The notes beneath the pieces were generated by a model. That model made no database searches. It was not told the DNA's origin and saw only the letters and a list, made by a program, of their open reading frames with translations. Below, one piece after another: positions 26,701-63,977 of a stretch of 64,000 nt of DNA (its first letter is position 1; each line of letters begins with the position of its first letter). This DNA is from Daejeonella sp. (GTDB lineage: Bacteria; Bacteroidota; Bacteroidia; Sphingobacteriales; Sphingobacteriaceae): the NCBI RefSeq assembly GCF_030695525.1, contig NZ_JAUYSS010000065.1:1-64000 (forward strand), read 5' to 3'. The translations under genes were made by a program, and so were the position numbers.

Positions 26701-27108
26701 CTGTGGTGGGGCAACTTCTTCAACTTCAATTACACTTGCCTTAACTATTGCTTGTTTTTTTGAAACAATGATTGTTTCATCTACAATTGAATAGGTTAGT
26801 GGCTGATCAGCGAAACATTGTTTTAATACCTCTTCCAATGAAGTATTATTAACATTTATGGTCACCGGTTTTGCCGTACGTAACATCTGTGTATTATAAA
26901 GAAAGCTATAGTTAACTTGCTTCTGAATCTCTCTCAAAGCCTTCTCCATTGGAGCATTTTTGACAGTAAGACTTATTTTCTGTGCATAGCCATTAGCATT
27001 AACCTGCAGCAGAGAAGTCAGACATAGAATAATTACGAGTTTCATAACCCTGATTAGTTTTAATGAAATGCAAGGTTCCTTGCATTTAAACAATGTGTAA
27101 AGTTTCAT
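23785..27108 (-). CDS. SusC/RagA family TonB-linked outer-membrane transporter (with STN domain)
   Basis: 1107 aa; STN 'APMEKALREIQKQVNYSFLYN', CarboxypepD-like 'GKVTDSKGVPLPGVSIKLKATNIGASTDINGNF', plug 'PLYVVDGVPINAG'. Confidence 0.95.
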   Translation of the reverse strand: MKLYTLFKCKEPCISLKLIRVMKLVIILCLTSLLQVNANGYAQKISLTVKNAPMEKALREIQKQVNYSFLYNTQMLRTAKPVTINVNNTSLEEVLKQCFADQPLTYSIVDETIIVSKKQAIVKASVIEVEEVAPPQEIKGKVTDSKGVPLPGVSIKLKATNIGASTDINGNFTLNIPDAGILQFTYIGFVTQEISTIGRTTINVVLLEDQQALSEVVVIGYGTQSRQDVSSAIGSLSVGNKKLADLPITSPEQLLQGRVGGVNITQDTGTPGGRSTVRIRGASSITGGNDPLYVVDGVPINAGNYNGAAGGSVPQNPLSNISPNDIESIDILKDASAAAIYGSRASNGVIVITTKRGKQDQTKISYNSYFGFQEVAKRIPLLGGPEWGELINEANVNVGNAPPIANPGALTTTDWQDEIFRRAPISNNEISLSGGTQKTQYFLSGSYLNQTGVVIGSGFSRGNFRFNFDQKINERLKAGINMSMNRSKTDRVSAGDRDGIVAVAIVKSPAVPARNADGSLNPNDPYISNIDNPLIIADQVRNDAFNNRALGNAFVEFKILEGLNFRSSIGLDYLSLDEVYFVPPNNLTVLGRTTNGSGTNSMTQDLGWINENTLNYSKTLNENHRFNVLLGYSNQESKFNRTVASATNFALEAIQTLGSASIKNSSSTGGSWGLTSYFSRLNYSFKDKFNLAASYRIDGSSRFAENNKYGSFPSVSAAYRLGQENFLKDLNWVEDVKVRASWGQTGNQEIGNFTSRGLFSGGFNYIGASGLSQTQLANPNLSWESTEQTNIGLDLSFFKGRINFSTDIYKKNTSGLLLAVALPRSSGFTSSIQNVGNVENKGIELSLNTVNIDGRDFKWSTDFNISFNRNKVTNLPGGDIPLGFNGYASVIKEGYPLGTFYGWNILRVNPATGNYDVQDVNGDGNIPLASTTLDNVVLGSAQPKFTGGFTNSVSYKNFDASVFMHFVYGNQIFNQAEYSYGRLHTWFNSSTLARNRWRKPGDIATLHRAAWGDPTRNGSVSNRVLQDGSFLRVKNIALGYNFQNAGLKKAGIQNVRVYAAGQNIFTWTDYRGYDPEVNANGNDTTLGFDMSSYPQARSFSLGLNATF

Positions 27109-27176
27109 ACATTTGTGAGTTTGGTTTGATTTAAATTATTGGTTTTACGATCCACTATTTTTAGCGCCAAATTATG

Positions 27177-27207
27177 CCGGAGGCGTTCGCAGCGCTTCCG
27201 GTTTTTT
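27177..27207 (+). terminator. + strand hairpin/T6 upstream of and opposite to susC 1
   Basis: CCGGAGGCG-TTCGCAG-CGCTTCCGG followed by TTTTTT; 69 bp upstream of the susC start on the opposite strand. Confidence 0.7.
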
Positions 27208-42218: not shown

Positions 42219-42258
42219 GTATATAGAATTTTTGTTTCAGATTATTTATTTAAAAATC

Positions 42259-43014
42259 TTACCGAAATTTAAGTGTGCCAAAATATTGGGGCAAATGAAA
42301 TTGTGGTTTTGGATGATTGATAGGCGACCATGTAGCATAATGAGGATTGGAGGTGATTTCAGCTATTTTGTAAAAATTCGCTTTCCAGATTACACCTTTT
42401 TTGGGCCGGCTGATTTTTGAATAATTTTCCAGCATATTAAGCGGAATTCTATATTCTACGGTCCATGTTAGTGGTCCCGAAATTTCGGGATCCACTATTT
42501 TTGGTAAGGAATGTCCGATCTCAATCTTTTTTATGTCCTCTGCATTAGGTTTAGGTCCAATACGTGGATTTGGATTGTATTCAAGCAGTGCTGTGCCCCC
42601 GCAATTAACTTCGAGATTAAAAAAAATCAGGGGAAACTCAGTGTTAGGAGAAAAGAAGAATTCTACAGCAGAATCTTTCCATACCGGTCCATTGATTTCT
42701 GTTGTTATACTTCTGACAAAACGATCCTGAACATGAAAAATAACATAAACATTTTCTGAATCATACATCATTTTAGCATGTACAATTGGGCGGAATTCAG
42801 GATTCTTTCGAATGAAATTATTGATCTCAATTGATTTAATTTTCTTCCATTCCCGTTTATCCCAATCCCCATCTATTTTAATAGCATGCTTCAACCTGAC
42901 TATATTGTAGACAGGCTGGAATCCTTCTGAATCCAGCCTGCTTACCTGAGCAATTGCATTATGGCCCAATAATAAGACAATAAATAAGGTTGTAATAGCT
43001 TTTTTGGCTGTCAT
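42259..43014 (-). CDS. Carbohydrate-binding family 9-like exported protein
   Basis: 'HAIKIDGDWDKREWKKIKSIEI...MYDSENVYVIFHVQD...VWKDSAVEFFFSP'. Start chosen at MTAKKAITTLFIVLLLG (signal peptide) rather than the longer ORF. Confidence 0.78.
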   Translation of the reverse strand: MTAKKAITTLFIVLLLGHNAIAQVSRLDSEGFQPVYNIVRLKHAIKIDGDWDKREWKKIKSIEINNFIRKNPEFRPIVHAKMMYDSENVYVIFHVQDRFVRSITTEINGPVWKDSAVEFFFSPNTEFPLIFFNLEVNCGGTALLEYNPNPRIGPKPNAEDIKKIEIGHSLPKIVDPEISGPLTWTVEYRIPLNMLENYSKISRPKKGVIWKANFYKIAEITSNPHYATWSPINHPKPQFHLPQYFGTLKFR

Positions 43015-43081
43015 ACTTGTGTGATAGGGCCAGAGTTTGAAATTTATTATCTGCAAATGCAGGGTCTTTACTTCCTGTATA

Positions 43082-44878
43082 TCACTTTTTTTTACTCCCG
43101 GCATTTCTGACCATATCTACATCGGAGCTCGACACGACACTGGCATTATTCCCAAATTTCTTACGGATATAAGTTGCAATCGAAGCGACGGCATGATCAT
43201 CTAAAAATCCCTTATGGGCAGGCATTAATCCATCCCATTTTTGTCCGTTAACTTTGATTTCGCCCTGCAACCCATTTAAAATTGCATCAAGAAGTCTTGT
43301 CTTATCACCGCTTACCCAATCTGAGCCATCAAGTGGTGGAAAACGGTTATTATCTCCCTTCCCGTCTTTTTGATGACAACTTGCACAATAGGTATTATAT
43401 AGGATACTACCTGCAAGCATATCACCACTCTGGAGTTTGTCTTTAATAGCATCTGGCTCTTTAATATATGATCTTGTTTTACGGGCTTCCATTTTGGCTA
43501 ACTGGGCTTGTCCAAATTTCTCTTTATCACCTTTATACATAATCCGCCAAATCTTTCCTTTATTGGACTCCGATATATACAGCGAACCATCAGGACCTGT
43601 TGATAATCCCATAGGTCTGTAAACAGCATCGCTGGTATTCACTACAGTATCTACTCCAGTAAAGCCATCAGCAAATATTTCTATTTCACCGGTAGCTTTT
43701 CCATTCTCAAAAGGAACAAAACACACGATATAGCCAGCCTGAGGATAAGGTGAGCGGTCTGTTGAACCGTGGAGTGCCACAAAGGCACCTTGTTTGTACC
43801 TTTCAGGGAATTGATTCCCCTGATAGAACATGATATCCATAGGCGCCCAATGACCAGGGAAGCCAATCACAGGAAGATCAAATTCAGCAGCTCTGCCAAT
43901 TATTTTGCCATCCCCACCATAACCCGGTTGCAATACATTCTTTTGGAGAATATGATCATAATATGCATAGGGCCAGCCAAAATCGGAGCCTTCGGTTACT
44001 TTTAACAGAGGTTCAGAAGGGAGTACAGCCCCTTGCCATGCCGAATACAGATCTGGGTAAATGGTATGAAAATTATCAATACCGTTCATCACAGCATATA
44101 AATTGTCATCCAAAGGGCTCCATTGCATTCCAACTACACTTCTGATACCAGTTGCAAATTTATAGCCATCTTTTTGAGTCTGATTATTCTTGTTTGCGTC
44201 AAATCTCCAGATACCGGCGTGATTTATCAGTTCAGGTGAAGGATCTAAACCTTTACCCCCGGGTATGCCAATTGGTCCATATTTAGTAATATCCTGTCCT
44301 GCATCAGAAGGGGATCCAAATGGAACATACATATAGCCTTTACTATCAAAGGCTAGTGGCTTTGTAGTATGCCAGTTCTTGGCCACATTGGTATCAAGAT
44401 CAGTAAGTATTACTTCTGTCCTGCTTGTCGGAACCAGTTCTCCGGGTTTTAACTTATTTCTCAGAACCTGATTAACAGTACTGGTATATAAATAACCATT
44501 GTGAATAGTTACACCCACCGCAGAGCTGCCAACATCTTTATAGTCGCCAAAATAGACGATAGAATCAGCTTTACCATCATTATCCAAATCACGTAATCCA
44601 ACAGTACCCCCAGACCGGTCCATCGCACGGTTAAAAGTTAACTTAACATAAATGTCGCCATTATCGTTAACAGCTAAATGTCTGGCCTTACCAATGCTAT
44701 CCACAACCACTAAAGCCTCAAAATTATCAGGCAAAAAGAGGCCACCATTATCTGCATCAGCTTTAGGCGATTTTTTGGTACCGCTGCATGAAGTGAACAA
44801 AATTAGTAATAGCAGAATGCCCGTTATAAGATTCCGGGAATTTACAATCGGTAAAAAAAATTGTTTTAGTAATTTCAT
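43082..44878 (-). CDS. PQQ-dependent sugar dehydrogenase-like lipoprotein with C-terminal cytochrome c
   Basis: Lipobox 'LFTSC'; propeller 'ATGIRSVVGMQWSPLDDNLYAVMNGIDNFHTIYPDLYS'; heme motif 'YCASCHQKDGKGDN' near C-terminus. Confidence 0.85.
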   Translation of the reverse strand: MKLLKQFFLPIVNSRNLITGILLLLILFTSCSGTKKSPKADADNGGLFLPDNFEALVVVDSIGKARHLAVNDNGDIYVKLTFNRAMDRSGGTVGLRDLDNDGKADSIVYFGDYKDVGSSAVGVTIHNGYLYTSTVNQVLRNKLKPGELVPTSRTEVILTDLDTNVAKNWHTTKPLAFDSKGYMYVPFGSPSDAGQDITKYGPIGIPGGKGLDPSPELINHAGIWRFDANKNNQTQKDGYKFATGIRSVVGMQWSPLDDNLYAVMNGIDNFHTIYPDLYSAWQGAVLPSEPLLKVTEGSDFGWPYAYYDHILQKNVLQPGYGGDGKIIGRAAEFDLPVIGFPGHWAPMDIMFYQGNQFPERYKQGAFVALHGSTDRSPYPQAGYIVCFVPFENGKATGEIEIFADGFTGVDTVVNTSDAVYRPMGLSTGPDGSLYISESNKGKIWRIMYKGDKEKFGQAQLAKMEARKTRSYIKEPDAIKDKLQSGDMLAGSILYNTYCASCHQKDGKGDNNRFPPLDGSDWVSGDKTRLLDAILNGLQGEIKVNGQKWDGLMPAHKGFLDDHAVASIATYIRKKFGNNASVVSSSDVDMVRNAGSKKK

Positions 44879-44909
44879 TGTGACTTCTGATTAAATGTAA
44901 TTTAAATCT

Positions 44910-44938
44910 ATCCCGGAGAATGTAAAAATCTCCGGGAT
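44910..44938. terminator. Intercistronic perfect 10-bp stem-loop downstream of susD 2
   Basis: ATCCCGGAGA-ATGTAAAAA-TCTCCGGGAT. Confidence 0.6.
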
Positions 44939-44965
44939 GAATTTAAAGGTTTTAACTACAATAAT

Positions 44966-46528
44966 TTAATGTTTTACATCCCACCATAATCTAGTGGCAG
45001 CGTTATCCGGGCCACCTAATAATGCTTCTGCTGCTTTTACAGCTGCACCATTTCTGTCCCTGTCATAATTCAGGAATGGGATCCGTCTGATAATCTTATT
45101 TGCAGGAACATCCGGGTTATCTGAATGTATCAGGGGATATAATTTAGGGTACCCTGAGCGTCTGATAGATGCCCATGCTTCATGTCCTTCAGGGAATAAG
45201 GCTATCCATTTTTGGGTAAGTATTTGCTCTCGCTGTTTTTCAGGGACGGAAGCGAATTTTACCGGAATATCCGTCAGCGCCGGGGTATTGAAGTACCCAC
45301 CAGGTGCTTTGGGTAGGTTTGTGCTGTTTAAATAACTAGTTATCGTTGCATTATCAGTTATTCCCCATGTTCTGAGGGACATTTCTATACCTTTTTCATA
45401 CATTGCTTCGGCAGTACCACCCATATTCCATCCATTCAAGGCTCCTTCGGCACGAAGAAAATATGCTTCTGCAGTGTACATCACGGTAGAAGGTGTTTTG
45501 AACATACTACCCGGAAGAAGTGCCTCACTCGGGCCTGAAGTATTATCAGGGTCATTAGCAGGTGCAACAATTTCTGCCACATTCATTCCGTTTCTAACCC
45601 CTGCATATTTGCCGGTATTTACAGCCGGAGCCCAATATTTGCTCATTCTTGGATCGTCATAACCGCCTAATACACTTTCCATTGTAGAACTCATCCTGAA
45701 TTCATTCCAACCGGATTGTCTGTTATATCCGTTATAGTTTACGCCCCCAACTTTAAGATAAGCATCGTCACTTAATTCAGCCATTGTTCCTCCGGCAACA
45801 GCAGCTTCCGCTTCTGTTTTTGCCATTGCAGGTTCTACGTCAGAAATTCTTAAAGCTAAGCGTAAACGCAGTGTATTCGCAAATCTGACCCATTTTCTGT
45901 TATCGCCATTGTAAATTACATCTTTATCTCCATAAGAAGGTTGAGTAATATTAGCATTAAGTACATCAGTTGCTTCTTTTAATTCTTTAAAAAGATCCAT
46001 ATAGATACTTTTTTGGGAATCATAGGATACTACAGTGCTGTCTGAACCAATTTTTGAGTAAGGTATAGGGCCGTAATAATCTGTAGCCCGATGCATTACA
46101 AATACCTTCCAAATTCGTGCGATGGAATTCAAAGCTTTTGTTTCAGGCGTCTTTGTTTCCTTTAAAATTGACATAAGTGGTGGCAAAGACTTAGTATAAG
46201 TTGCGATCCATTGCTCCTGGATCCACTCTTGAGCGATATTGTATCGGTCTGTAGGGTCGAATGTTGCAGTGATTGCTGAATATTGAGCAAACAAATCGGC
46301 AAAAAAGCCTTGTGCGTACTGATATTCTGAAGATGATCTGCCGGAATACATAGCCATGTATTGTGCATTCGTGAATAATCCCTTAACATCACCTGAGTTT
46401 AGCGAAGTTAATCTGGTTGGGTCTGTATTTAATTCCGAATAATTTTTAGTACATCCCGAGCTAATGGCCAGAATTACTAAGCTAAAGCAGAGATATACTC
46501 TGAATTGTGTTAATATTTGATGTTTCAT
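44966..46528 (-). CDS. SusD/RagB-like outer-membrane lipoprotein (SusD_2-like)
   Basis: 'AISSGCTKNYSELNTDPTRLTSLNSGDV...MAMYSGRSSSEYQYAQGFFADLF...QKWIALFPEGHEAWASIRRSGYPKLYP'. Confidence 0.93.
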   Translation of the reverse strand: MKHQILTQFRVYLCFSLVILAISSGCTKNYSELNTDPTRLTSLNSGDVKGLFTNAQYMAMYSGRSSSEYQYAQGFFADLFAQYSAITATFDPTDRYNIAQEWIQEQWIATYTKSLPPLMSILKETKTPETKALNSIARIWKVFVMHRATDYYGPIPYSKIGSDSTVVSYDSQKSIYMDLFKELKEATDVLNANITQPSYGDKDVIYNGDNRKWVRFANTLRLRLALRISDVEPAMAKTEAEAAVAGGTMAELSDDAYLKVGGVNYNGYNRQSGWNEFRMSSTMESVLGGYDDPRMSKYWAPAVNTGKYAGVRNGMNVAEIVAPANDPDNTSGPSEALLPGSMFKTPSTVMYTAEAYFLRAEGALNGWNMGGTAEAMYEKGIEMSLRTWGITDNATITSYLNSTNLPKAPGGYFNTPALTDIPVKFASVPEKQREQILTQKWIALFPEGHEAWASIRRSGYPKLYPLIHSDNPDVPANKIIRRIPFLNYDRDRNGAAVKAAEALLGGPDNAATRLWWDVKH

Positions 46529-46574: not shown

Positions 46575-49500
46575 TCAAAATGACACCTTCAGATTAAGAC
46601 CAAAATTACGGGATGTAGGTAAAGCTGCATATTCTAAACCGCTACCATTTATACCTCTGGTTACTTCCGGATCTATTGGTGCAGCTTTTTTGAAGAAAAA
46701 CAAATTCCTTCCAACTAATGACAATTTTGCACTTTTAATAAACCGATATTTGCTTATTAATTTATCACTAAGCTGATATCCTAAAATAAATTCACGCAAT
46801 CTTGTATTTGTTGACGAATAGCTGTAAAAACCTGCAGAGGGGTATCTGCCTCCTATTAATCCAAAATATTTTTGTGAAGCAACAGCAGTTGTGTTTTTTG
46901 TGCCATCTTCCCTGTATCCATCCAATACAATACCACCTTCACGACCTAATAATGAATTTTTTGAATGGCCATAAGCATCAATAAGTGCCTGTGTGCCACC
47001 AATAACTGTACCTCCCTGCCTGTGATCAATTAAAAAGCTCATGGAAAGATTCTTAAATGAAAACTCATTTGAAAAACCGAGCATATAATCAGGGTTAAAG
47101 TTCCCAACGAACTGATCCAGACCATCTGTCAAAATTGGTGTTCCATCATTTTCAACCAGTTTCCGTCCTTGAGCATCCTCTTTCCAACCTCTGACATACA
47201 TATCACCATAACTGCTGCCTTCGTCAACCTTGATCAGATATACGTTATCTCCCTCTCCAATAACAATTGACTTTATCGTTTCAGTAAGTTCCTTTACCTT
47301 ATTGATATTTTTGGAATAATTTACTCCCATATCCCACCTGAAATTTTTACCCGCAATTGGAGACAAATTAGCAACAAGTTCAACTCCCTGATTTTGAATT
47401 AATCCGGCATTAATATATTTTCTGTCAAATAATGAAGCTGCAGGTAATCCAATTAATAAAAGTTGATTTTTGGTTTGAGTGTTATAGTAGGTAAAATTCA
47501 TTCCTACCCGGTTGTTGAAAAATTTCCAGTCTAATCCGGCTTCGTATGAAGTAGTCAGTTCAGGCTTGTAGGTTCCCAATGACTGAATATTAGGTGTAAT
47601 AATTGCCCCGCCAATACCAACAGAGTAATAGTTCCGATCGAGATATTGAGTTCCACCATAACCTGAATTAGCCATGGTCAGGCTTGCCTTTCCATAGGAT
47701 ACCCATGAAGGTAGTTTAACCATATCTGATACGATTGCAGATAAACCAACAGAAGGATAAAAGTAAGATTGACTTTCGGCAGGCAAAGCTGATGACCAGT
47801 CATTCCTTGCAGTGACATCCAGATACAGATAATTGTTATATGCAAAAGTTGCAGTACCGTAAAGCGATTGAACGCGTGGAGTCCTTCCATCAAGTGTAGT
47901 AAAGAAAGGTGACTTCGCATTTTGCATGTAGAAAAAATTTGGCTTATTTAAACCATTCGCGCTACCGGTAATACTTTCATATTTACTCTCTTGTAATGAA
48001 GCTCCAAAATTTCCTAAAACATCAAATTTATTTCCAAGGTTACGTTTAAAGGACAATAGGGCATCAACATTGATTCCCTGACTTCTGTTTGTACCATAAT
48101 CAAAGTTTGATCCAACCTGACTAAAATAGGAATCGGCATATACTTTTCGGTTGTTGTTTTGAATGGTCTTGTCAATACTACCACGAACCTGAAGATTAAG
48201 CCAATCATTAAATTCATATTTTGCCGAAACCAGACCGAGAACACGATCCCTTTTTTGGTAGTAATTTATTCTGTTTAATGCCCAATATGGATTTACCAGA
48301 ACCGAAGAACCAGGTAACCAGTAGCTTTGCCTTTCAGTACCTGTATTGTCTGTATAGGCAAAGTTTTTCATTTCGTCTAAAGGAATAGAAGTAGGAGCAC
48401 TAAAAATTGAAGGTAATACATAGTTTCCGCTTCCTCCCGGCACTGGGCGGTTGTTTACATCTTCAAAAATATAGCTCATTTTTGTTGAGATAGAAAGTTT
48501 GGATGAGATAGTATTATCTGTTTTAAGATCAACATTGTGTCGTGTAAGATCATTGTTCGTTAGAATACCCTCTGCCATTGTATTCCCGTAGGAGAAATAG
48601 GTTTGCATTTTTTCACCGCCTCCACTAACACTAAGGGTATTATTATATGTTTGGGCAGTTCTGAAAAAATTCTTTAAATTATCTGGCTGTCCCGTTAATG
48701 GAACGCTTTTCCCATTCCAAAGAGTAACCATTTGTCCTGTTGCCTTCGGCCCCCAGCTACGTTCAGAGTTTGAGCTATAAATGCCGGCATCTCCCTGGCC
48801 ATATTCATATTGCAATTCTGGTAGTACCGCCGCTTGATCCAAACCCAGTCCGCTAATGAAGTTAACTACTGTTTGATTAGCTTTTCCTCTTTTAGTGGTA
48901 ATAATGATGGCACCATTTTGGCCCTGACTACCATATAAAGCTGCAGCAGAGGCACCTTTCAGGATGGTCATACTTTCAACTTCATCGGAATTAAGCATTC
49001 CAACGTTTCCGCTTAAAGGGACTCCATCAATTACATATAAAGGTTGATTGCTGTTAGTAATAGAGCGATTCCCCCGAATTAGTACCTTAGAATCACCACC
49101 TGGTCCGGTTGCATCTTTTGTTATGGTAACACCGGCAACTTTTCCTTGTAGTGAATTGATTAAGTTGGTCTCTTTTGCTTCATTCATCTTGTCGCCTTTG
49201 ATGTTTTGAACGGCATAAGTCAGTGATTTGGCTTCCCTCTCAATACCAAGAGCGGTTACAACAATTTCTCCTAGAATCTGAAGATCTTCACGTAAGGTTA
49301 CATTTAATGTAGTTCTGCCATTAACAGCAATTTCCTGGGCTACATATCCTATATAACTGAAAACCAAAATATCAGTATCAGAGGCATTCAGTGAATAATT
49401 CCCCTGCATATCAGTCGCCGTTCCCAGTGCGGAACCCTTGACACGTACACTCACCCCGGGAAGTGACTCACCTTTTGAGTCGACCACCTGCCCCCTGATG

Positions 49501-49925
49501 ATAATTGGCGGAGCATCCTCAATAAGTGGAGTTATATCTGTAATCTTTGGCTGTTGAAAGAGTAGAGGTTTTCTTTTTACAATCACAATGTTGCCTCTGA
49601 TTGTATAATTCAAAGGTTGATCGGTGAAACAGCGGTTAAGTACACTTTCAATCGATGAGTTTTTGAACTTTACATCCACAGGTTTTGCTTCTTTCAGCAT
49701 CGTGGCGTCATACACAAATTCATATTTACTTTGGCTGCTAATTGACCAGAATACCTGTTCAAGAGTAGCATCTTTCTGAGATAAAGTGATCTTTTGAGCA
49801 TACCCTGCGGCGCTTGCCTGAAGTATGGTAAAGATCATTAAAACAATAGAAAGTTTCATAATCAGAAGTAGTTTATAGGCGGTGGAATATTGCACACTGC
49901 ATATCCTATGAGAAGGAATTTTCAT
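46575..49925 (-). CDS. SusC/RagA family TonB-linked outer-membrane transporter
   Basis: 1116 aa; STN, CarboxypepD-like, plug 'PLYVIDGVPLSGNVGMLNSDEVESMTILKGASAAALYG'. Confidence 0.95.
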   Translation of the reverse strand: MKIPSHRICSVQYSTAYKLLLIMKLSIVLMIFTILQASAAGYAQKITLSQKDATLEQVFWSISSQSKYEFVYDATMLKEAKPVDVKFKNSSIESVLNRCFTDQPLNYTIRGNIVIVKRKPLLFQQPKITDITPLIEDAPPIIIRGQVVDSKGESLPGVSVRVKGSALGTATDMQGNYSLNASDTDILVFSYIGYVAQEIAVNGRTTLNVTLREDLQILGEIVVTALGIEREAKSLTYAVQNIKGDKMNEAKETNLINSLQGKVAGVTITKDATGPGGDSKVLIRGNRSITNSNQPLYVIDGVPLSGNVGMLNSDEVESMTILKGASAAALYGSQGQNGAIIITTKRGKANQTVVNFISGLGLDQAAVLPELQYEYGQGDAGIYSSNSERSWGPKATGQMVTLWNGKSVPLTGQPDNLKNFFRTAQTYNNTLSVSGGGEKMQTYFSYGNTMAEGILTNNDLTRHNVDLKTDNTISSKLSISTKMSYIFEDVNNRPVPGGSGNYVLPSIFSAPTSIPLDEMKNFAYTDNTGTERQSYWLPGSSVLVNPYWALNRINYYQKRDRVLGLVSAKYEFNDWLNLQVRGSIDKTIQNNNRKVYADSYFSQVGSNFDYGTNRSQGINVDALLSFKRNLGNKFDVLGNFGASLQESKYESITGSANGLNKPNFFYMQNAKSPFFTTLDGRTPRVQSLYGTATFAYNNYLYLDVTARNDWSSALPAESQSYFYPSVGLSAIVSDMVKLPSWVSYGKASLTMANSGYGGTQYLDRNYYSVGIGGAIITPNIQSLGTYKPELTTSYEAGLDWKFFNNRVGMNFTYYNTQTKNQLLLIGLPAASLFDRKYINAGLIQNQGVELVANLSPIAGKNFRWDMGVNYSKNINKVKELTETIKSIVIGEGDNVYLIKVDEGSSYGDMYVRGWKEDAQGRKLVENDGTPILTDGLDQFVGNFNPDYMLGFSNEFSFKNLSMSFLIDHRQGGTVIGGTQALIDAYGHSKNSLLGREGGIVLDGYREDGTKNTTAVASQKYFGLIGGRYPSAGFYSYSSTNTRLREFILGYQLSDKLISKYRFIKSAKLSLVGRNLFFFKKAAPIDPEVTRGINGSGLEYAALPTSRNFGLNLKVSF

Positions 49926-50008
49926 ACATTTGTATTGTTTAGGTTTATAAGTTTGTCGATATCACGTTGTAAGCGGGTAAGCCTGAAACTGTCTTAATGA
50001 CAGATTTG

Positions 50009-50040
50009 AACCGGTGCGTTCGTAGCGCTCCGGTTTTTTT
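50009..50040 (+). terminator. + strand hairpin/T-run upstream of and opposite to susC 2
   Basis: AACCGGTGCG-TTCGTAG-CGCTCCGGTT followed by T-run; about 86 bp from the susC start. Confidence 0.7.
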
Positions 50041-50062: not shown

Positions 50063-51208
50063 TTAAGGCATAACTATTATCCTCCTTTCTTTCCCCTGTG
50101 CATCTCCGGGAATAATTTTAAAATGTATTGAACCTGTTGATTCCAAAATCTCAAGTACCTCGGATACATTTCTGGTTCGGGATATTTTTGCGCCGAAAAC
50201 CTTTTCAGAAAAAGATCCCTGGTACTCCACTTTTAGGTTGTACCATCGGGATATCTGTCTCATAATACTTTGAATATCTTCGTTTTTGAACATAAAATAT
50301 CCGTCTTTCCAGGCTGTAACCTGACTGACATCAACAGTCGCTACATCTATGTCTCCATTCTTAATTCTTGTTTGTTGACCAGGTGTTATTATTTTGCTTT
50401 TATTTTCTTTAATAATTCTTACGGAACCCTCGATTAAAGTAGTATTCGTGCTTCCTTCATCGGGATATGCCATTATATTGAAATGAGTTCCCAAAACTTC
50501 AACTGTTTGGTTGCTATTTATGACTCTAAATGGCATTTTTCTGTTATGAGCAACTTCAAAATAGGCTTCTCCGCTTATTTCTACCCTTCGTTCATTGCCT
50601 GTAAATCTAACCGGGTAGCGTAAGGATGAAGCCGAGTTTAACCATACTTTACTTCCGTCAGGTAAGATTACCTGATATTGCCCGCCTGGAGGTGTTTCAA
50701 TCGTATTATACGAAAGTGATTGAGAAGAGTTTTCTGAATTCGAGATATTATAAACCAGTTGACCATCAGCTGTCTTGCTAATTTTTATACCGGATTGCTC
50801 AGCAAGCTGCCCATTTTTTGCATCTGTTAAACTGATTTTTCGACCGTCGGCTAAGGTTAAAGTAGCAATGTTGCCACCGGGGGAGATATCATTTTGTACC
50901 TCTGAAATAGCGTGTTTTGCATCAGAATTTTTTATATAGTCCTGATAAAACAATGTGCCTACTGAAATAATGAAGATAATGATTGCTGCAGATATGATTC
51001 GTGGCCAAAGGGTAGGTAGTTTGGATTTGCTGATATCAGCAATCATTTTCTGCCTGAATTCTTTTTTTGCAATTCTCAGGTCGGTTTCAGTAAGCTCAGT
51101 TAATTCGTCTTCATGCAAGTGATGAAACCATTTTTGCAGAAGTAGTTTTTCTTTCGGGTTACATTTTCCCGACCTGTATTTGTCAAGCAATTCCTTCGCT
51201 TCCTTCAT
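50063..51208 (-). CDS. FecR family anti-sigma factor
   Basis: 'TPPGGQYQVILPDGSKVWLNSASSLRYPVRFTGNERRVEISGEAYFEV'. Confidence 0.95.
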   Translation of the reverse strand: MKEAKELLDKYRSGKCNPKEKLLLQKWFHHLHEDELTELTETDLRIAKKEFRQKMIADISKSKLPTLWPRIISAAIIIFIISVGTLFYQDYIKNSDAKHAISEVQNDISPGGNIATLTLADGRKISLTDAKNGQLAEQSGIKISKTADGQLVYNISNSENSSQSLSYNTIETPPGGQYQVILPDGSKVWLNSASSLRYPVRFTGNERRVEISGEAYFEVAHNRKMPFRVINSNQTVEVLGTHFNIMAYPDEGSTNTTLIEGSVRIIKENKSKIITPGQQTRIKNGDIDVATVDVSQVTAWKDGYFMFKNEDIQSIMRQISRWYNLKVEYQGSFSEKVFGAKISRTRNVSEVLEILESTGSIHFKIIPGDAQGKERRIIVMP

Positions 51209-51333: not shown

Positions 51334-51918
51334 TTATAATTTATATAAAAGCAACATAATTAGGTATGTGATTAGCCCTAATCGCACACGAAGAATACGT
51401 AATGCTTTTTTAATCTGAGTTGATACGGTTTGCTCAGATATTTCCATGAGATGGGCTATTTCTTTATGTGTAAGTTTATCTTTCCTGCTTAGCTGAAACA
51501 CTTCTTTCATTCTAGGAGGAAGTGCCTTTATTTCTTTTTCGATCAGATTTTTTAAATCATTTTCCCGAATCAGAAAATCTGTTTGAATTCCTGCGTCATC
51601 TATGAAATTTTGTAATGATGCCAGGTACCTTGCTTCAACTTTTTTATGTGAAAATAGATCCAGGGCTTTGTTACGGACTGCCGTGAAAAGATAAGATGGA
51701 AGAGAAGTTTGCATTAAAAAATCAAAGCGCCTGATCCATAATGTGGTTAAAACCTCATGAATAATATCCTGTGCTTCCTGTTTATTACTCAGCTTTTTAT
51801 GAGCATAGATATAGAGCAGGCTATGGTAACGCTCGTAAATTTCGGTAAAAGCCCTTTCATCCCCTTCATGCAAAAGAGCTGTCAATTCCTTATCGGACAG
51901 TGTTTGATAATAAGACAT
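51334..51918 (-). CDS. ECF sigma-70 family RNA polymerase sigma factor
   Basis: 'FTEIYERYHSLLYIYAHKKLSNKQEAQDIIHEVLTTLW...LPPRMKEVFQLSRKDKLTHKEIAHLMEISEQTVSTQIKKALRILR'. Confidence 0.95.
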   Translation of the reverse strand: MSYYQTLSDKELTALLHEGDERAFTEIYERYHSLLYIYAHKKLSNKQEAQDIIHEVLTTLWIRRFDFLMQTSLPSYLFTAVRNKALDLFSHKKVEARYLASLQNFIDDAGIQTDFLIRENDLKNLIEKEIKALPPRMKEVFQLSRKDKLTHKEIAHLMEISEQTVSTQIKKALRILRVRLGLITYLIMLLLYKL

Positions 51919-52039: not shown

Positions 52040-52969
52040 CTACCAAGTCCTCTCCTTCAACAACTCCTGCATTTCGGCCTGAGAATAGGGCAGTTTGCCG
52101 GGGTTTGCACTTATCCATTTCGCGAAATCAGCTTCTATTTCTGCTGTCCAGCGGTTATCGATCTGTCCGGAAGTATATTTTCCTTCTTTTAATCTGATCT
52201 GCCCGAATTCGTCCCTTACCAGAACCAGTTCTCCCACTTTCACTACTTTTTCGGCATGGTGGGGCGGAATAAAGGCTACACCATCAAGATATCCCAAAAC
52301 GATATCTCCCGGCAAAACAGTTACCGGTCCGATCCTGATGGCTACATTCACTCCTTTGAGCATCATTTCTGTCTGATGGGAAGGATGATCTCCCCTGATA
52401 AAAGAGGTGAAGCCCGGCATTGCCTCCAGATCCCTCAGGTCTCTCACCGTACCATTAAAAACGACCCCATTGCCTGATTTAGTCAGAATTGCTGTTGCAA
52501 GGTTACTTCCGATAATCGGGCCATCTACTACTTTCCCATAAGAATCAGCTACATAAACATCGCCTTTGCTAAGCATATCAATTGGCCAGGAAACCATATC
52601 GCCCACCCGTCCATCTGCTTTACCTTCTTTTTCAAGATGTTCTCTCACCTCAGGCCTGATGGGCATGTATTGTGCCGTTAATGCCCTTCCAACCAAAACC
52701 TCTCCGGCATGAATATTTTTCCAGTTCCCCTCATATTGGTGTAAATAACCTGCCGCTTTAAGTACTCCCCATGCCTGCTCCAGCGGGACTCTTTTCATTC
52801 GTTTAAGCAGGTCATCAGAAACTTTTGGCCTTCCGTCAGGAAAGCGTTCCCCTGTCCATTTCGGGGTTAATTCTATCATTTCCTGCCGGCTGATGGTTAG
52901 GTTTTGTGCATGAACTGATGTAGAAAGCAGTACTAATGCTGCAATGAGCTGTATTTTAAAAAATTTCAT
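52040..52969 (-). CDS. Exported RraA-like / HMG-aldolase-like family protein
   Basis: N-terminal signal 'MKFFKIQLIAALVLLSTSVHAQ'; 'GPIIGSNLATAILTKSGNGVVFNGTVRDLRDLEAM...VTVLPGDIVLGYLDGVAFIPP' RraA signature. Confidence 0.88.
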   Translation of the reverse strand: MKFFKIQLIAALVLLSTSVHAQNLTISRQEMIELTPKWTGERFPDGRPKVSDDLLKRMKRVPLEQAWGVLKAAGYLHQYEGNWKNIHAGEVLVGRALTAQYMPIRPEVREHLEKEGKADGRVGDMVSWPIDMLSKGDVYVADSYGKVVDGPIIGSNLATAILTKSGNGVVFNGTVRDLRDLEAMPGFTSFIRGDHPSHQTEMMLKGVNVAIRIGPVTVLPGDIVLGYLDGVAFIPPHHAEKVVKVGELVLVRDEFGQIRLKEGKYTSGQIDNRWTAEIEADFAKWISANPGKLPYSQAEMQELLKERTW

Positions 52970-52995
52970 AAATCAATATTTTAATCAATAATCAA

Positions 52996-55989
52996 TTATT
53001 TCAGTAATGTTTCAATCGTGTGGAGTTTGCCATTTTTGATTGTAGTTCTGATCTTCATTGCATCCTGAATTCTTTTTAAAGGATCACCATCTACAATGAT
53101 TAAATCGGCCAGTTTTCCTGTTTCGATACTGCCCAAATCCTTGTCAACCCCAACAACTTTTGCGGCCTGAATGGTTGCTGATTGCAAAGCCTTGAAAGGA
53201 GAGAGACCTGCATCAACATAAACCCATAGTTCTGAGTGCAAACTGCTTCCGAAAGGGGCAAAAGGTGCATCAGTACCTGCGGTAATGCTTCCGCCGGCAT
53301 CAGAGATCGCTTTGATTGTTTTCAGAAGTGCTTTATAGTTGGCATCGGCTTTTGGTGTTCTAAGGGAGTCAAACTTGTTGGTTTGTACATAAAGGCCTTG
53401 CAAAAATTCCGGAGTGAGGAATTTCCTGTTCCGTTCATCATTTAATAATTCATCGTACTGTTTAGCCAGCCTGAAATATCCTGTTCTTAAGCAGGCCGTT
53501 GGGGTGATATTGATCCCGGATTTAGCAACCAGTTGCACCACATCCTGATAGCTTCTGAAATTCGCATCAAGCAGCATTGAATAGCCTCTGCGGCTGGTAC
53601 CTGAGAGATGCTCAATAGCATCAACATTGTATTTTGTGGCGGGATAAAGTTCATGAGAAGAGAGAGGAATGCCTATTTCATGGGCACCTTCAGTAAGAAC
53701 CTTTTGAATAGAATCAGGCATCCTTACATAAGTCTTGATCAGGCTATAGCCCAATTTTTTGGCCCTTTCCAATTCCATTCTAATATGTTTGGCATCGGTT
53801 ACACTATTCTCCAGTCCGTAAGCTATACGGGAACCATCAGTTAATCCACCGGTAAAGAATAGTCTAGGTCCCGGACGAACACCGCTTTCCCAGGCTTCTT
53901 TGCGTTCCAGCGCATCATATGGATCTGCTCCCGGTTCCCTAACAGAAGTAATACCATAGGATAACCAGACATTGCCGAGTTTTATGCCTGTATTTGAACT
54001 TTGGTGCGTATGCATTTCGAAAAGTCCTGGCATTACCACCTTGTCTGATGCATCAATAATTTTAATCCCTGGCTTGGGATTCTGATGAGGTTTGATATCG
54101 CTGATTCGGTGCCCCTTAATATAGATATCCATATTTTCCTGGTACGTGCTATCCTTTCCATTAAATACTTTTCCAGCATGAATGATATATTCCTCTGTGG
54201 GGATTTCAGTCTTCCATTTAAGGTCAATTGCTATTTCCTTTACTTTACCACTAGCTACATCTATCTGTTTTAACCTATCAGTTGCGATATATACTATAGT
54301 TTTTGAATCTCCTGTCCAGCTCAGGTTATCAGCAAGCTCATCGGTTAGTTTTTTCTCTTTACCTGAAATTTCACCGTTTAAGTTTACCGCAATAGTCCAC
54401 AGTGTACCATCTTTGGTATAGGCAATGGTTTTTCCATCCGGCGACCAGGCAGGGCCATTCTGCACACGCATTCCAAGTGGTTTGGCAGAATCAGGTGAAA
54501 CCATTACTGCCGTATCTTTTTCAAGTGATACAAGCATGAAGTTATTGACACCTTCACGGAAACGGGTGGAATAAGCTTTTAAGGCCATCATGGCTACCGT
54601 CTTACCATCCGGTGACCAGGAAGGTTTGCTTGGTACCCAAAGTGATTTATTTGCCACTTTGATTTCACCGCTGGCCACATCGGCAATATGCAGAACGCCA
54701 TAGCCCCATTTCTTCATGTAGTTCTGGGTATAATAGGCAATTTTTTTACCATCAGGCGACCAGCTTGGGTAGGATACATCGTCCTTAATCTGTCCGGTAA
54801 GCAAGCGACTTTGATTGGTTTTAAGATCATGTAACCAAATGTTCATGATACCTCCCCGGTCAGAAATATAGGCGAGAGTATTGCCATCAGGCGACCAGTC
54901 AGGTTCCAGGTCTACAAATGAATCGTTGGTTAACTGGATGAGTTTACCGTCTATCTCCTGGATAAAAATATCTCCTTTGGCTGCAAAAGCTATTTTCTTT
55001 CCATCATCAGATACAACCGGACTTGCAATGCCTAAAGCTTTCTGATCTTCAGTATTGTCAAAATCATACTTTTTCTTTTTGTAAGGCTTTCGGTTAAGCG
55101 TAAAAGTGGCTTCAAAAGGAATAGTTTCAACCGATGATTGCCCGATTATCCTTTTCCTGATAAGCCCATCGGCTGTGTATATTAACTTATTGTCAGCAGT
55201 CCAGTTGATGCGGAAAGGGAACAGATCTTCCTCACCGGCAGATATTTGTTCAGTACTGCCATCACTCAGGTTAGCCAGCTGGATATAACTCGTATTTTTA
55301 TCATCAAAAAGCATTGATTTGCCGGTAAATGCTACATAGCTTATCTTGCTATCGTCATTATTCCAGGAAGGTGCAGCAATACGCATAGCTTCAGAAATCG
55401 CCAGTTTTTCTGCTCCGTTTTCAAGAATATAAATTCCGGATTCTGTTCTATTTGAAACAAATGCGATTTTGGTCCCGCTGGTTGAAAATGCAGGATTTGA
55501 ATCATTTGCCTGATCGGATGTGAGCTGCTTAAGTGTTTTGCTCGCAAGATCAATTTGCCAGATATCATAATTTCCGCTTCTGTCGGAAGAGAAGACGATC
55601 GATTTACCATCTGGTGACCAATCAGGTTCCCTGTTATCCGATGTTCCCGAAGTTAATTGTGTTAAGCCTGAGCCATCCTTGTTGATTGTCCAGATATGAT
55701 AAGTTCCATCCCGGTAGGAGTGAAAGACAATTTTTTCGCCGTCAGGCGACCATGCAGGTTCCTGGGAATCTCCCATTTCATCGGTTACGCTTATTGCTTT
55801 TCCGCCTTCAACCGGGATTGTCCAGATTGTGCCTTGTAAAGCCATTGCCAATGTTGAATTGTCGGGTGACAGGGCAACAGCCATATTGGTGCCTTCTGAA
55901 ACCGTTACATCAATTGCATTATTTTTGCAGGATGTAATGACAAAATTGAATAAAATAGCACAGCTCAGGAATAAGATTTTTTGTTTCAT
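52996..55989 (-). CDS. TolB-like propeller plus amidohydrolase fusion lipoprotein
   Basis: Repeated 'DWSPDGKSIVFSSDRSGNYDIW' blades; C-terminal 'KVVMPGLFEMHTHQSSN...TAGTDAPFAPFG...DLGSIETGKLADLIIVDGDPL'. Start chosen at MKQKILFLSC. Confidence 0.9.
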   Translation of the reverse strand: MKQKILFLSCAILFNFVITSCKNNAIDVTVSEGTNMAVALSPDNSTLAMALQGTIWTIPVEGGKAISVTDEMGDSQEPAWSPDGEKIVFHSYRDGTYHIWTINKDGSGLTQLTSGTSDNREPDWSPDGKSIVFSSDRSGNYDIWQIDLASKTLKQLTSDQANDSNPAFSTSGTKIAFVSNRTESGIYILENGAEKLAISEAMRIAAPSWNNDDSKISYVAFTGKSMLFDDKNTSYIQLANLSDGSTEQISAGEEDLFPFRINWTADNKLIYTADGLIRKRIIGQSSVETIPFEATFTLNRKPYKKKKYDFDNTEDQKALGIASPVVSDDGKKIAFAAKGDIFIQEIDGKLIQLTNDSFVDLEPDWSPDGNTLAYISDRGGIMNIWLHDLKTNQSRLLTGQIKDDVSYPSWSPDGKKIAYYTQNYMKKWGYGVLHIADVASGEIKVANKSLWVPSKPSWSPDGKTVAMMALKAYSTRFREGVNNFMLVSLEKDTAVMVSPDSAKPLGMRVQNGPAWSPDGKTIAYTKDGTLWTIAVNLNGEISGKEKKLTDELADNLSWTGDSKTIVYIATDRLKQIDVASGKVKEIAIDLKWKTEIPTEEYIIHAGKVFNGKDSTYQENMDIYIKGHRISDIKPHQNPKPGIKIIDASDKVVMPGLFEMHTHQSSNTGIKLGNVWLSYGITSVREPGADPYDALERKEAWESGVRPGPRLFFTGGLTDGSRIAYGLENSVTDAKHIRMELERAKKLGYSLIKTYVRMPDSIQKVLTEGAHEIGIPLSSHELYPATKYNVDAIEHLSGTSRRGYSMLLDANFRSYQDVVQLVAKSGINITPTACLRTGYFRLAKQYDELLNDERNRKFLTPEFLQGLYVQTNKFDSLRTPKADANYKALLKTIKAISDAGGSITAGTDAPFAPFGSSLHSELWVYVDAGLSPFKALQSATIQAAKVVGVDKDLGSIETGKLADLIIVDGDPLKRIQDAMKIRTTIKNGKLHTIETLLK

Positions 55990-56062
55990 CGGATTATTCG
56001 GGTTAATTTCAGAAAAAAATATATTGATCAATCATATTATTAAATAGCTATAAATCAATTAA

Positions 56063-57115
56063 TTAGGATTTGGCTTTAGCGAGCACAGACTGCATACTTA
56101 CAGACCTGCCTCCCTGCCTTTTACTTTCATCAGCAGCTTCCATAAATACATGGATTGCGAGGGTTTCTTCCATACTTACCGGACTAATACCGTTTTTGAA
56201 GAATTTTAGCATGTCAATAACCAGCGGACGGTGTCCAACATCATTGAAAGAACCTGCGGGCAGGATCTCATTTAAGCCGTAGGCTACTCCACTGTGGGTA
56301 ACTTTCCCTTTTCGGATTCCCCTGTAGGTACCGATTCGGTCATTGTCCCAGATTCCAACTACGTGATCCGTATTTAGAGTATGTTTGCGTTGTACGGTAT
56401 GACATTCTTTGCCCATAATCGTGAATAGAATTTCAATTCCGTGAATTCCATACCAGTAAAAATCAGGGTGAGTAGGCTCAAGGGGACATCCACTATAAGA
56501 ATCTCCACCCATAATAGCACCTATTTCTCCATTCCGGGCAGCCTGCGCACCTTTTAAATATCGTGTTGGTGATGAGGAAAAAATCGGACTATTGTATTTT
56601 TTTGCAGCGTCCATAATGGTAATTACATCCTTTAAAGAGGCTGCAAAAGGTTTGTTGATAAAAAGAGGTTTACCTGCTTTAATCACCTCCATTGCTTGTT
56701 CAACGCGCGGATGGCCATCAAAAGTCATCAGCATAACTGCATCTACCCCGGATAGCAAAGCCTGAATTGAGTCTACCAGTTCGACGCCATTTTCCTTCAT
56801 TTTCCCAACATAAGTTGGGATTTGTTTTATACTCGATTCTATTTTTTTGCTTCCATAAGGATAGGCGGCGACAACCTTGAATCCTTCAAATGAGCTATCC
56901 CACACTGGTTGTACCACATCATATCCCGGGCCAGGGATATTGTTAATATGACTGATAATCATGGTTACCTGAGATGTGTCGAGTCCGATTATTCCAATTC
57001 TGGTAATTTTTTGTGATTGATTATTACCCAAAACCTGAATCGGATTTATTGAGGCTAAGCCTGCTCCTGCAATTGCAAGACCAGAAAGGAATTTCCGCCT
57101 GTCTATATTTTTCAT
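56063..57115 (-). CDS. Tat-exported Gfo/Idh/MocA family oxidoreductase
   Basis: 'DRRKFLSGLAIAGAGLA' Tat signal; 'ITRIGIIGLDTSQ' N-terminal Rossmann; 'GKPLFINKPFAASLKD' motif. Confidence 0.87.
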   Translation of the reverse strand: MKNIDRRKFLSGLAIAGAGLASINPIQVLGNNQSQKITRIGIIGLDTSQVTMIISHINNIPGPGYDVVQPVWDSSFEGFKVVAAYPYGSKKIESSIKQIPTYVGKMKENGVELVDSIQALLSGVDAVMLMTFDGHPRVEQAMEVIKAGKPLFINKPFAASLKDVITIMDAAKKYNSPIFSSSPTRYLKGAQAARNGEIGAIMGGDSYSGCPLEPTHPDFYWYGIHGIEILFTIMGKECHTVQRKHTLNTDHVVGIWDNDRIGTYRGIRKGKVTHSGVAYGLNEILPAGSFNDVGHRPLVIDMLKFFKNGISPVSMEETLAIHVFMEAADESKRQGGRSVSMQSVLAKAKS

Positions 57116-57184
57116 GTTTTATTAATTGAACTTATCGCGACCTGAGTTTATAATGATGCTGGAAGCCGGAGGAATCTTGCCAAA

Positions 57185-57223
57185 ATTTCGGGGAGGGGGA
57201 TTTCAAACTCCCCTCCCCGAAAT
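57185..57223 (-). terminator. Perfect 14-bp stem-loop downstream of the aminotransferase
   Basis: ATTTCGGGGAGGGG-GATTTCAAACT-CCCCTCCCCGAAAT followed by TTTT on the minus strand. Confidence 0.75.
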
Positions 57224-57230
57224 GGTTTTA

Positions 57231-58514
57231 TTATGAAAGTATACTGAGCAGTTTGTCAATATCTTCCTGGTTATTATAAATTGATGGGGAAATTCTTAGT
57301 TTATTTCCGAACCGCATAGCCACATGAATCTTAGCCGCACGCAATTTCTTCATCGTTTCATCCGGGTCTTTTGCCAGAAATACAATAATCGGGCTCTCAT
57401 TTCCCTCCGGAGTGATCGAAGTATAACCAATTTTAGGCATTTCTGTCGCCAGACGGTCGGTTAAGGTTCTGACATAATTGCGAATGTTGTCTACTCCCAA
57501 TGCGTGGATATATTTCAGTGAGGTAATTGCACATGTAACCCCTTCGTAGGATGGATAACTAACTTCATATATGCGCGGACCGGTACCCGGAGTAAAACTA
57601 ATCTCAGGCAAGGCAGGGTCCGGAGTATCAGTCCATGGTGCATAATTATATTTTATACCTCCATTATGGTGAGTGGTACGAACCACGGTATCCTGCAGGT
57701 CTTTACGAACATACATAAACCCAAACCCTTTACTACCCATGAGCCATTTGAAGGTTGAACAGGCAGCAAGGTCGATTCCCATTGCTTTAACATCAACCGG
57801 CACAGCACCAACACCCTGAATGAAATCGACATAGAGCACCGCCCCATTGGCATGGGCCAGGTCACTGATGGCCTTGACATCTTTTACCAAAAATCCATTC
57901 ACATTGGAAACCAGAGTGATGGCTACCAGTTTTGTGTTTTTGTCAATAACCCCTTCAAAGTCTTTCACATCAAAACGCCAGTCATTATGTTTAATGATTT
58001 TCACTTTTAAACCATCACGCTGTTCACGCATTTTGTAACTGTAGAGACTGGCAGAATAGTGAAGGTCTGTGGTTACTACATTGCCCCCTTTGAAATCCAT
58101 TCCATTCAGGATATTGTTTTCAGCTTCAACAGTAGTTCGGGCAAAGGAGATCTCGTCATTATCTGCATTGATCAATTTTGCAAAACTATCTTTACATTCC
58201 TGTCTGGTTTCTGAATAAAGGGGCCACCAGGGTTCTCCAACTTCGTTCTTCGCCCATTCTGCATAACGATGTAAAGCCGCTGCAGTGTAAATATTGATTG
58301 GGTGGGTGGAGGCATTATCCATGTATATCTCCTCTTTCACCCTCGGAAAATCCGCTCTGATTTTTGTAAAATCCGGCGAACTGCCGGTAATATGAGAGGG
58401 CATTACATCCGGATCGACGGAACTGTTTTCCGGTTTGCATGAACTCAGGGAACCCAGTCCGATGGTGCTAACACCCACTCCAGCCAGGGATTTTAAAAAG
58501 GTTGATCTTTCCAT
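57231..58514 (-). CDS. Exported class-V aminotransferase family PLP enzyme (cysteine desulfurase/isopenicillin N epimerase-like)
   Basis: 'IYMDNASTHPI', 'VLYVDFIQGVGAVPVDVKAMGIDLAACSTFKWLMGSKGFGFMYV' (PLP lysine); N-terminal 'GVSTIGLGSLSSCKPEN' lipobox. Confidence 0.88.
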   Translation of the reverse strand: MERSTFLKSLAGVGVSTIGLGSLSSCKPENSSVDPDVMPSHITGSSPDFTKIRADFPRVKEEIYMDNASTHPINIYTAAALHRYAEWAKNEVGEPWWPLYSETRQECKDSFAKLINADNDEISFARTTVEAENNILNGMDFKGGNVVTTDLHYSASLYSYKMREQRDGLKVKIIKHNDWRFDVKDFEGVIDKNTKLVAITLVSNVNGFLVKDVKAISDLAHANGAVLYVDFIQGVGAVPVDVKAMGIDLAACSTFKWLMGSKGFGFMYVRKDLQDTVVRTTHHNGGIKYNYAPWTDTPDPALPEISFTPGTGPRIYEVSYPSYEGVTCAITSLKYIHALGVDNIRNYVRTLTDRLATEMPKIGYTSITPEGNESPIIVFLAKDPDETMKKLRAAKIHVAMRFGNKLRISPSIYNNQEDIDKLLSILS

Positions 58515-58614
58515 TTTTGTTTTATGTTTAATTAATTCTGTAGACAGTTTATCAAATCTATTGTGTCAGAGCTTATTATCCTGCTACTTTCATTTGGATT
58601 TACAATACTATCTT

Positions 58615-58644
58615 CTATCAGGCGTATCATAATACACCTGATAG
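58615..58644. terminator. 13-bp stem-loop downstream of susD 3
   Basis: CTATCAGGCGTAT-CATA-ATACACCTGATAG. Confidence 0.55.
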
Positions 58645-58673
58645 AAAACAATCTGGCTTAATACTTAATTGTA

Positions 58674-63300: not shown

Positions 63301-63876
63301 GCCTTTTATTCGAACACTCACACCCGGGAGGGTTTCACCGGTAGCATCTGTGATTTTTCCTTTTACTTCTTTTGGAGGGGCTTCTTTAATGATTTGAAGT
63401 TCAGAATTTGGTGTAAACAGCTCCTTTTTTGATAGAATAATTGTTTTATCAACAATTGAATAATTCACAGGCTGGTTATAAAAGCAAATTTTAAGAACTT
63501 CATCAATTGAGGCTTGTTTCACATCAATATCAACTGACTTTACCTGTTTAATCCATTCCTGATTGTAAAAAAATAAATAACCCGTTTGTTTTTTTATCTC
63601 TTTCAAGACTTGCTCAACCGGAGCGTTCTGCCTTGATATCGTAATCTTTTGGGCAAATCCTGATGCACTTACCTGTAAACAGGCTATCAATAATACAACA
63701 GCGGTTAATTTCATCTTCAGGATAATTTGCCTTGTTAATTTGGCCTGATTAAGTTCTGTAACTAAAACCGGAAAAAAATCCGGACTAATGAATTTTATTG
63801 CTCGTATAAAATGAGAATTAGAGAACCTGCCCAGCTTACTGAAAGGTTCTTTTTTGCAAAAAGCATTAATTTGCAT
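60385..63876 (-). CDS. SusC/RagA family TonB-linked outer-membrane transporter
   Basis: 1163 aa; STN, 'GKITDATGETLPGVSVRIKGTNTGTTTDLNGNY', plug 'PLVIVDGLESSMDNINPFDIESISVLKDAASASIYG'. True start may be further in. Confidence 0.95.
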   Translation of the reverse strand: MQINAFCKKEPFSKLGRFSNSHFIRAIKFISPDFFPVLVTELNQAKLTRQIILKMKLTAVVLLIACLQVSASGFAQKITISRQNAPVEQVLKEIKKQTGYLFFYNQEWIKQVKSVDIDVKQASIDEVLKICFYNQPVNYSIVDKTIILSKKELFTPNSELQIIKEAPPKEVKGKITDATGETLPGVSVRIKGTNTGTTTDLNGNYTITVPEDNSVLVFTYIGYVTKEVVVSNRSSIDVTLEAANTALTEVVVIGYGTSNLANLTGSVSTVDVEKAMSSRPATNVASMLEGQVSGVFIHTNSGQPGAEGMNVLIRGQGSMGDSQPLVIVDGLESSMDNINPFDIESISVLKDAASASIYGTRAANGVILVSTKRGKEGPIQIRYNTYFGKQDPTAVPDFLGSADYAELHNEARANAGLSPTFTADAIARYRAGNDPNFPSTDWMSVLYSGSGGSQYHGLDFSGGTEATRYNISMAYNEQKGVIKSVDAEQLNFRFNVDNKINKWLNVGINTALNRAVNTLPLTGPELTRGGDLQQFYNSVTHIPPTQKLKLADGSWSGEYPLGNFAAWIDQGNLRAIKGNQLVGTIFSDAKIIKGLSWRNRASLDYTFRETTNHISQFTYGGGQVSGPSSNQEILDRFGILDMESLLNYDNRFGKHGVKGLAGASTRTEDMYSTMAFRLGFPSNDLTAISAGSTAGLLNSGTNRRATLGSYFARVNYDYDGKYMFEANIRRDGSSKFARGNRWGWFPSFSAGWVMSDESFMKDINWLNFLKLRASWGQLGNHRIADFMYLPLITLGQNYAFGGASATGAAQTTANNPDITWETTTEKNIGVDLKMLKNRISLSIDAYDRYTDDILTVVPVSGAFGLPAPTVNYGAMSNKGIETEMRYSKMKGEFQFDVSLNGSYNKNNVEEYFSRDIFDVAGEGGAIVREKGTPWNSYIGYEWDGYFMSDAEAKAGAVHHPSVGAGDLKFKDQNGDGKIDGNDRVVLGNTVPKFTYGMNLGFRYKGFDFSTFFHGTEGVSRYLRVRGYMPFMRNGKALSMHLDRMIVQNGVVVKEGYFPKTQLEGGAGGKNVVASGFSIHDASYLRMKNIQLGYTIPASLTKKAFISRARLYLSGENLLTFTKFPDGYDPEANNTAFHGHVFGGAAGWSYPQVKFYTVGLNVNF

Positions 63877-63943
63877 AACTTTACATGATTTAGGGTGAAT
63901 AGAATATTACTTAACAGTGTGTTTTTAGCCCCTTTATTTTATT

Positions 63944-63977
63944 TCCGGGAACGCTGCAACGTTTCCGGATTTTTTTT
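63944..63977 (+). terminator. + strand hairpin/T8 upstream of and opposite to susC 3
   Basis: TCCGGGAACG-CTGCAA-CGTTTCCGGA followed by TTTTTTTT; 68 bp from the annotated susC start. Confidence 0.7.

Follow-up and report, generated by a model that had tools for sequence, protein, structure and literature searches.

The window, as we call the whole stretch of 64,000 nt analysed here, carries on its minus strand an ECF sigma factor gene, a FecR anti-sigma factor gene, the receptor gene susC2 and a gene for a SusD-like lipoprotein, in this order:

51334..51918, minus strand: ECF sigma factor gene (by domain assignment)
50063..51208, minus strand: FecR anti-sigma factor gene (FecR and FecR_C; by domain assignment)
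46575..49925, minus strand: susC2, a SusC/RagA receptor with N-terminal STN, CarbopepD_reg and Plug domains, the presumed target
44966..46528, minus strand: SusD-like lipoprotein gene of the susC2 locus

The gap between fecR and susC2 measures 137 nt, and its plus strand holds TACATTTG and a terminator, which delimit the following features:

49925..49932, plus strand: -7 promoter box TACATTTG (TAnnTTTG) over the susC2 ATG (exact match to the published consensus; enrichment and register tests)
49937..50040, plus strand: predicted antisense small RNA gene asSusC2, about 104 nt, with 5' stem-loops and terminator
50008..50040, plus strand: intrinsic terminator hairpin GAACCGGTGCG-UUCGUAG-CGCUCCGGUUU with T-run

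Also encoded in the susC2 locus (window 41097-46528, minus strand) are a CBM9 protein, a propeller of the lactonase type and a protein that resembles glucose/sorbosone dehydrogenases and has a cytochrome c domain, a content that suggests sugar oxidation and not classic glycan hydrolysis. The susC3 locus (window 52040-60251, minus strand) includes an amidohydrolase with beta-propeller repeats, a class-V aminotransferase and an RraA-like protein, which suggests a substrate other than plain polysaccharide. At the N-termini of FecR-linked SusC proteins (for example, window 49860-49925, minus strand), the signal peptide is preceded by a common extension that closes with a motif like K(L/F)xx(I/V)M(K/R)L; SusC proteins without FecR have the signal peptide at the very start and lack this extension.

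A first-pass annotation of the window had described a hairpin with a T-run on the plus strand opposite the susC2 leader, and the structure is present at that place: AACCGGTGCG (50009-50018), the loop TTCGTAG (50019-50025) and CGCTCCGGTT (50026-50035), with a run of seven T on the 3' side (50034-50040). It does lie upstream of the susC2 start, at a distance of about 84 nt where about 86 bp had been given. The terminator hairpin folds at -16.1 kcal/mol (z -4.1) and ends just before the fecR stop codon. The whole predicted RNA, folded from 49939, forms three stem-loops at -38.6 kcal/mol (z -5.6; none of 200 shuffles reached so low a value) and contains no ORF longer than 14 aa.

The position of TACATTTG over the susC2 ATG had been given exactly (49925-49932). 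The housekeeping sigma factor of Bacteroidota has TAnnTTTG as its -7 consensus (PMC7366714), and in Flavobacterium psychrophilum the -7 box occupies -12 to -5 from the transcription start (PMC9723704). By this spacing the 5' end of asSusC2 would fall near 49937, which is 12 nt before the susC start codon, so that the ATG itself would be left uncovered by the RNA. Judged by its sequence, TACATTTG is thus a Bacteroidota sigma-A -7 box, which the first pass had not recognised, and together with the terminator it outlines a complete predicted sRNA gene. We searched for a conserved -33 box in the antisense units and found none.

The same arrangement was detected opposite the two other susC genes with FecR in the window:

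27108..27115, plus strand: -7 box TACATTTG of the susC1 antisense RNA
27120..27206, plus strand: predicted antisense RNA opposite susC1, terminator at 27174-27206
63876..63883, plus strand: -7-like box TAACTTTA of the susC3 antisense RNA, one mismatch
63888..63977, plus strand: predicted antisense RNA opposite susC3, terminator at 63944-63977

The repetition reported earlier is real, the longer string CATACATTTG being common to susC1 (27106-27115) and susC2, although two occurrences in 64 kb carry little weight alone (7 of 100 shuffles had two or more). In the Daejeonella genome to which the window belongs (4.2 Mb), 22 susC genes score above the family cut-off. A box at the ATG (exact or with one mismatch) combined with an antisense terminator was found at all 12 of the STN/FecR-type genes and at none of the 10 others, with the terminators 56-99 nt upstream of the ATG. 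The longest closed ORF in the 12 antisense RNAs, searched for a small protein, is 16 aa. The sole FecR gene examined that has no SusC receptor downstream (C7) is followed by a 10-nt gap without an antisense unit.

To follow the hairpin into other genomes, we used a covariance model (R1) of the nine closest copies from the own genome. In their alignment, which was not fitted to the model, 98.9% of cells are paired, and five of the pairs have changes on both of their sides. R1 gave ten strong matches in the own genome, namely the nine training copies and one terminator, with the next match at E 0.016. This tenth match (L070, G000:C21:14334-14368) is an ordinary terminator unlinked to susC that has a nearly identical CCGGAAGTG stem and adjoins a peptidyl-prolyl isomerase-like gene. 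In 17 relatives, 18 of the 19 fetched matches (E <= 5.2e-4) map antisense within gaps between fecR and susC, and the hairpin is therefore linked to susC, as the conserved module proposed in the first pass requires. R1 also recovers hairpins from other orders; the cross-order alignment, which was fitted to the model, is 98.7% paired with 10 of 10 pairs changed on both sides. With a further model (R2), 26 of 28 matches (E <= 1e-3) in four genomes, some of them in the R2 training set, adjoin FecR_C genes. The apical sequences GTTGGTAGC and TGTTGCCGCA recur in antisense terminators and are absent among control terminators, a pattern too weak for a claim; the loop pattern TTNGNAG, examined for conservation beyond pairing, matched neither group.

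Independently of the models, we sampled the starts of 130 FecR-linked susC genes whose gap measures 80 nt or more, favouring the best-scoring gene per genome. The sample spans the family of the window, Bacteroidales, the phylum more widely and named genomes, among them Pedobacter jeongneungensis and Longitalea luteola. Terminators were present on the antisense strand in 102 of these gaps and on the sense strand in 21 (6.7% and 1.6%, respectively, in shuffles of the gaps), and about 22% of the gaps had no antisense terminator at the thresholds used. Non-FecR susC genes had an antisense terminator in 9 of 62 cases (Fisher 2e-17 against 102/130) and the exact box, at register -1, -5 or 0, in 2 of 62 compared with 57 of 130 (5e-10), p-values that overstate the number of events because the sequences are related and not independent. 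The terminator accompanies the exact box in 54 of the 57 genes. In one Bacteroidales genus the terminator was found in 28 of 28 cases and box plus terminator in 27 of 28, and loci from Bacteroidales, the order containing Bacteroides, show the same anatomy of the antisense unit. The unit thus accompanies FecR-type susC genes across much of Bacteroidota. Box and terminator together were absent from all 33 FecR-susC pairs with gaps shorter than 80 nt (family-level group f22, of the same phylum and another class, plus L226, L230, L245 and L276), which indicates that sigma/FecR control is possible without the unit.

Taken together, promoter and terminator at the susC2 site very probably belong to a cis-encoded antisense sRNA of the DonS kind, about 104 nt long (49937-50040, plus strand). 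By analogy, its role is likely the locus-specific repression of susC; DonS of B. fragilis lowers the expression of its susC (PMC7366714). From a start some 12 nt before the ATG, RNA polymerase would transcribe back over the susC leader, to which the predicted RNA is fully complementary from about -12 upward. A leader transcribed under the ECF sigma factor would pair with the antisense RNA over its full complementarity, starting from the 5' stem-loops of the RNA. The duplex, lying over the leader beside the ribosome landing site, would block susCD translation and/or invite RNase III cleavage, possibly with polymerase collision as an added effect, and the RNA would thereby restrain its own receptor until sigma/FecR induction is strong. 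Cognate duplexes have energies of -48 to -85 kcal/mol and the best non-cognate ones -21 to -34, roughly what shuffles give. Action on the own locus only is predicted from this difference, and trans action on other susC leaders was rejected on the same grounds.

Both elements could in principle have a more trivial origin, with CATACATTTG a signature of translation start and the hairpin either a terminator of independent function or a leader structure of the sense strand. A-rich sequence upstream of the ATG is common in Bacteroidota, and CATACATTTG alone is not rare, as such an origin would predict. The box, however, follows the antisense unit and not the type of gene: at FecR-linked susC genes with a short gap the exact box occurs once in 33, against 57 of 130 at gaps of at least 80 nt, and its near-absence where the gap leaves no room for an RNA points to a promoter and not to a translation signal. 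The TACATTTG sequence is moreover kept at three registers relative to the ATG (-1, -5 and 0), and the shift in register together with the short-gap control led us to reject it as a translation context. The first-pass annotation had named this possibility and a hairpin unlinked to susC as the two outcomes that would refute its module; both were tested and neither holds. The hairpin itself is placed on the antisense strand by its T-runs and by the 13 G-U pairs found when the nine hairpins are read antisense, which are A-C mismatches on the sense strand. A translation signature with an unrelated or sense-strand hairpin is therefore extremely improbable.

What matters might instead be the antisense promoter and not the RNA. 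Polymerases firing from the susC start codon might simply collide with sense polymerases or be occluded by them, the terminator merely keeping antisense transcription out of fecR and the sigma gene, and the placement of the promoter on the susC start in fixed registers and of the terminator next to the fecR stop codon would suit such interference. Plain interference needs neither a structured body nor a preserved hairpin, and both were found. The body 5' of the terminator has a mean fold z of -2.2, compared with -0.1 for the same stretch at non-FecR genes, and it folds better antisense than sense in 81 cases against 7 (32 against 28 in controls); this strand preference, with the G-U pairs, also eliminated a sense-strand leader structure. 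The whole susC2 unit is kept in three relatives, including a Daejeonella MAG whose susC2 is 93% identical; the terminator loop is identical in all four sequences compared, and the middle stem is preserved by one compensatory change from C-G to U-A. A body structured beyond its composition, specifically on the antisense strand, and the compensatory change favour a working RNA over a mere promoter, and we consider interference by the promoter alone unlikely. The RNA could also raise susC output, for instance through altered cleavage or stability of the mRNA. In B. thetaiotaomicron, 32 PUL antisense RNAs show negative and positive correlations with their susC (PMC10994844), and the individual pairs that rise together agree with such an effect and indicate that repression is not universal. 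Since DonS of B. fragilis, the single case put to the test, is a repressor (PMC7366714), activation at susC2 seems improbable, and a repressive antisense sRNA remains our preferred reading.

In a search of the fecR-susC gaps for a sense ECF promoter, only GCCTATG stood out. The motif is present on the sense strand in 19 of the 130 gaps compared with 0.3 expected, usually 6-38 nt past the fecR stop, and lies between this stop and the antisense terminator (e.g., L311, L308, L310, L312 and L297, and L001 and L006 of the own genome). It is a candidate ECF-sigma promoter or susC mRNA start.

We lean towards the broader view that a private antisense RNA is a standard part of sigma/FecR SusC loci throughout Bacteroidota wherever the gap exceeds about 80 nt, and that its promoter, embedded in the susC start codon, couples antisense firing to translation initiation. 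Several elements may be new: the spread over several orders with its link to sigma/FecR loci, the rule that an antisense RNA is to be expected at a FecR-type susC whose gap measures 80 nt or more, the embedding of the promoter in the susC start codon at fixed registers, and a terminator model with covariation. PUL antisense RNAs have been described as a feature of gut Bacteroides with a function called unclear, and here the same anatomy appears in lineages from soil, water and gut. With a simple predictor, a fixed register and a reusable hairpin model, sequence should suffice to annotate many such RNAs, and Pedobacter-like strains, which are easy to grow, offer a way to test their contribution to sigma/anti-sigma control.

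Among known RNAs, Flavo-1 and other Rfam motifs of Bacteroidota are likewise structured noncoding RNAs, and no Rfam family reached threshold in the window or in ten loci with an antisense unit. GibS/FopS sRNAs (RF04182) are also driven by sigma-A, and FopS sRNAs repress susC near the start codon; they act in trans through conserved seeds, whereas the non-cognate duplexes here are no better than shuffles, and asSusC2 scores 18.1 bits against the RF04182 covariance model (gathering score 115) and is not a member. A literature search covering few subscription papers returned no such antisense RNA outside Bacteroides. The closest known RNAs are the DonS family, PUL-associated cis-antisense RNAs of 78-128 nt (PMC7366714), a length that brackets the 104 nt predicted here and the median of 94 nt (5-95% range 72-123) estimated from box and terminator over 89 units. 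Like them, the susC2 RNA is predicted to be encoded in cis, antisense to and divergent from the 5' region of a PUL susC homolog, with its own housekeeping promoter carrying a TAnnTTTG -7 box (exact here), an intrinsic terminator and one RNA per locus. The hosts differ, being gut Bacteroides for DonS and Sphingobacteriales (Daejeonella) here, and repression is known for DonS whereas the susC2 RNA is predicted from sequence. By its predicted anatomy, that is, by architecture and length, the susC2 RNA belongs with the DonS-type RNAs.
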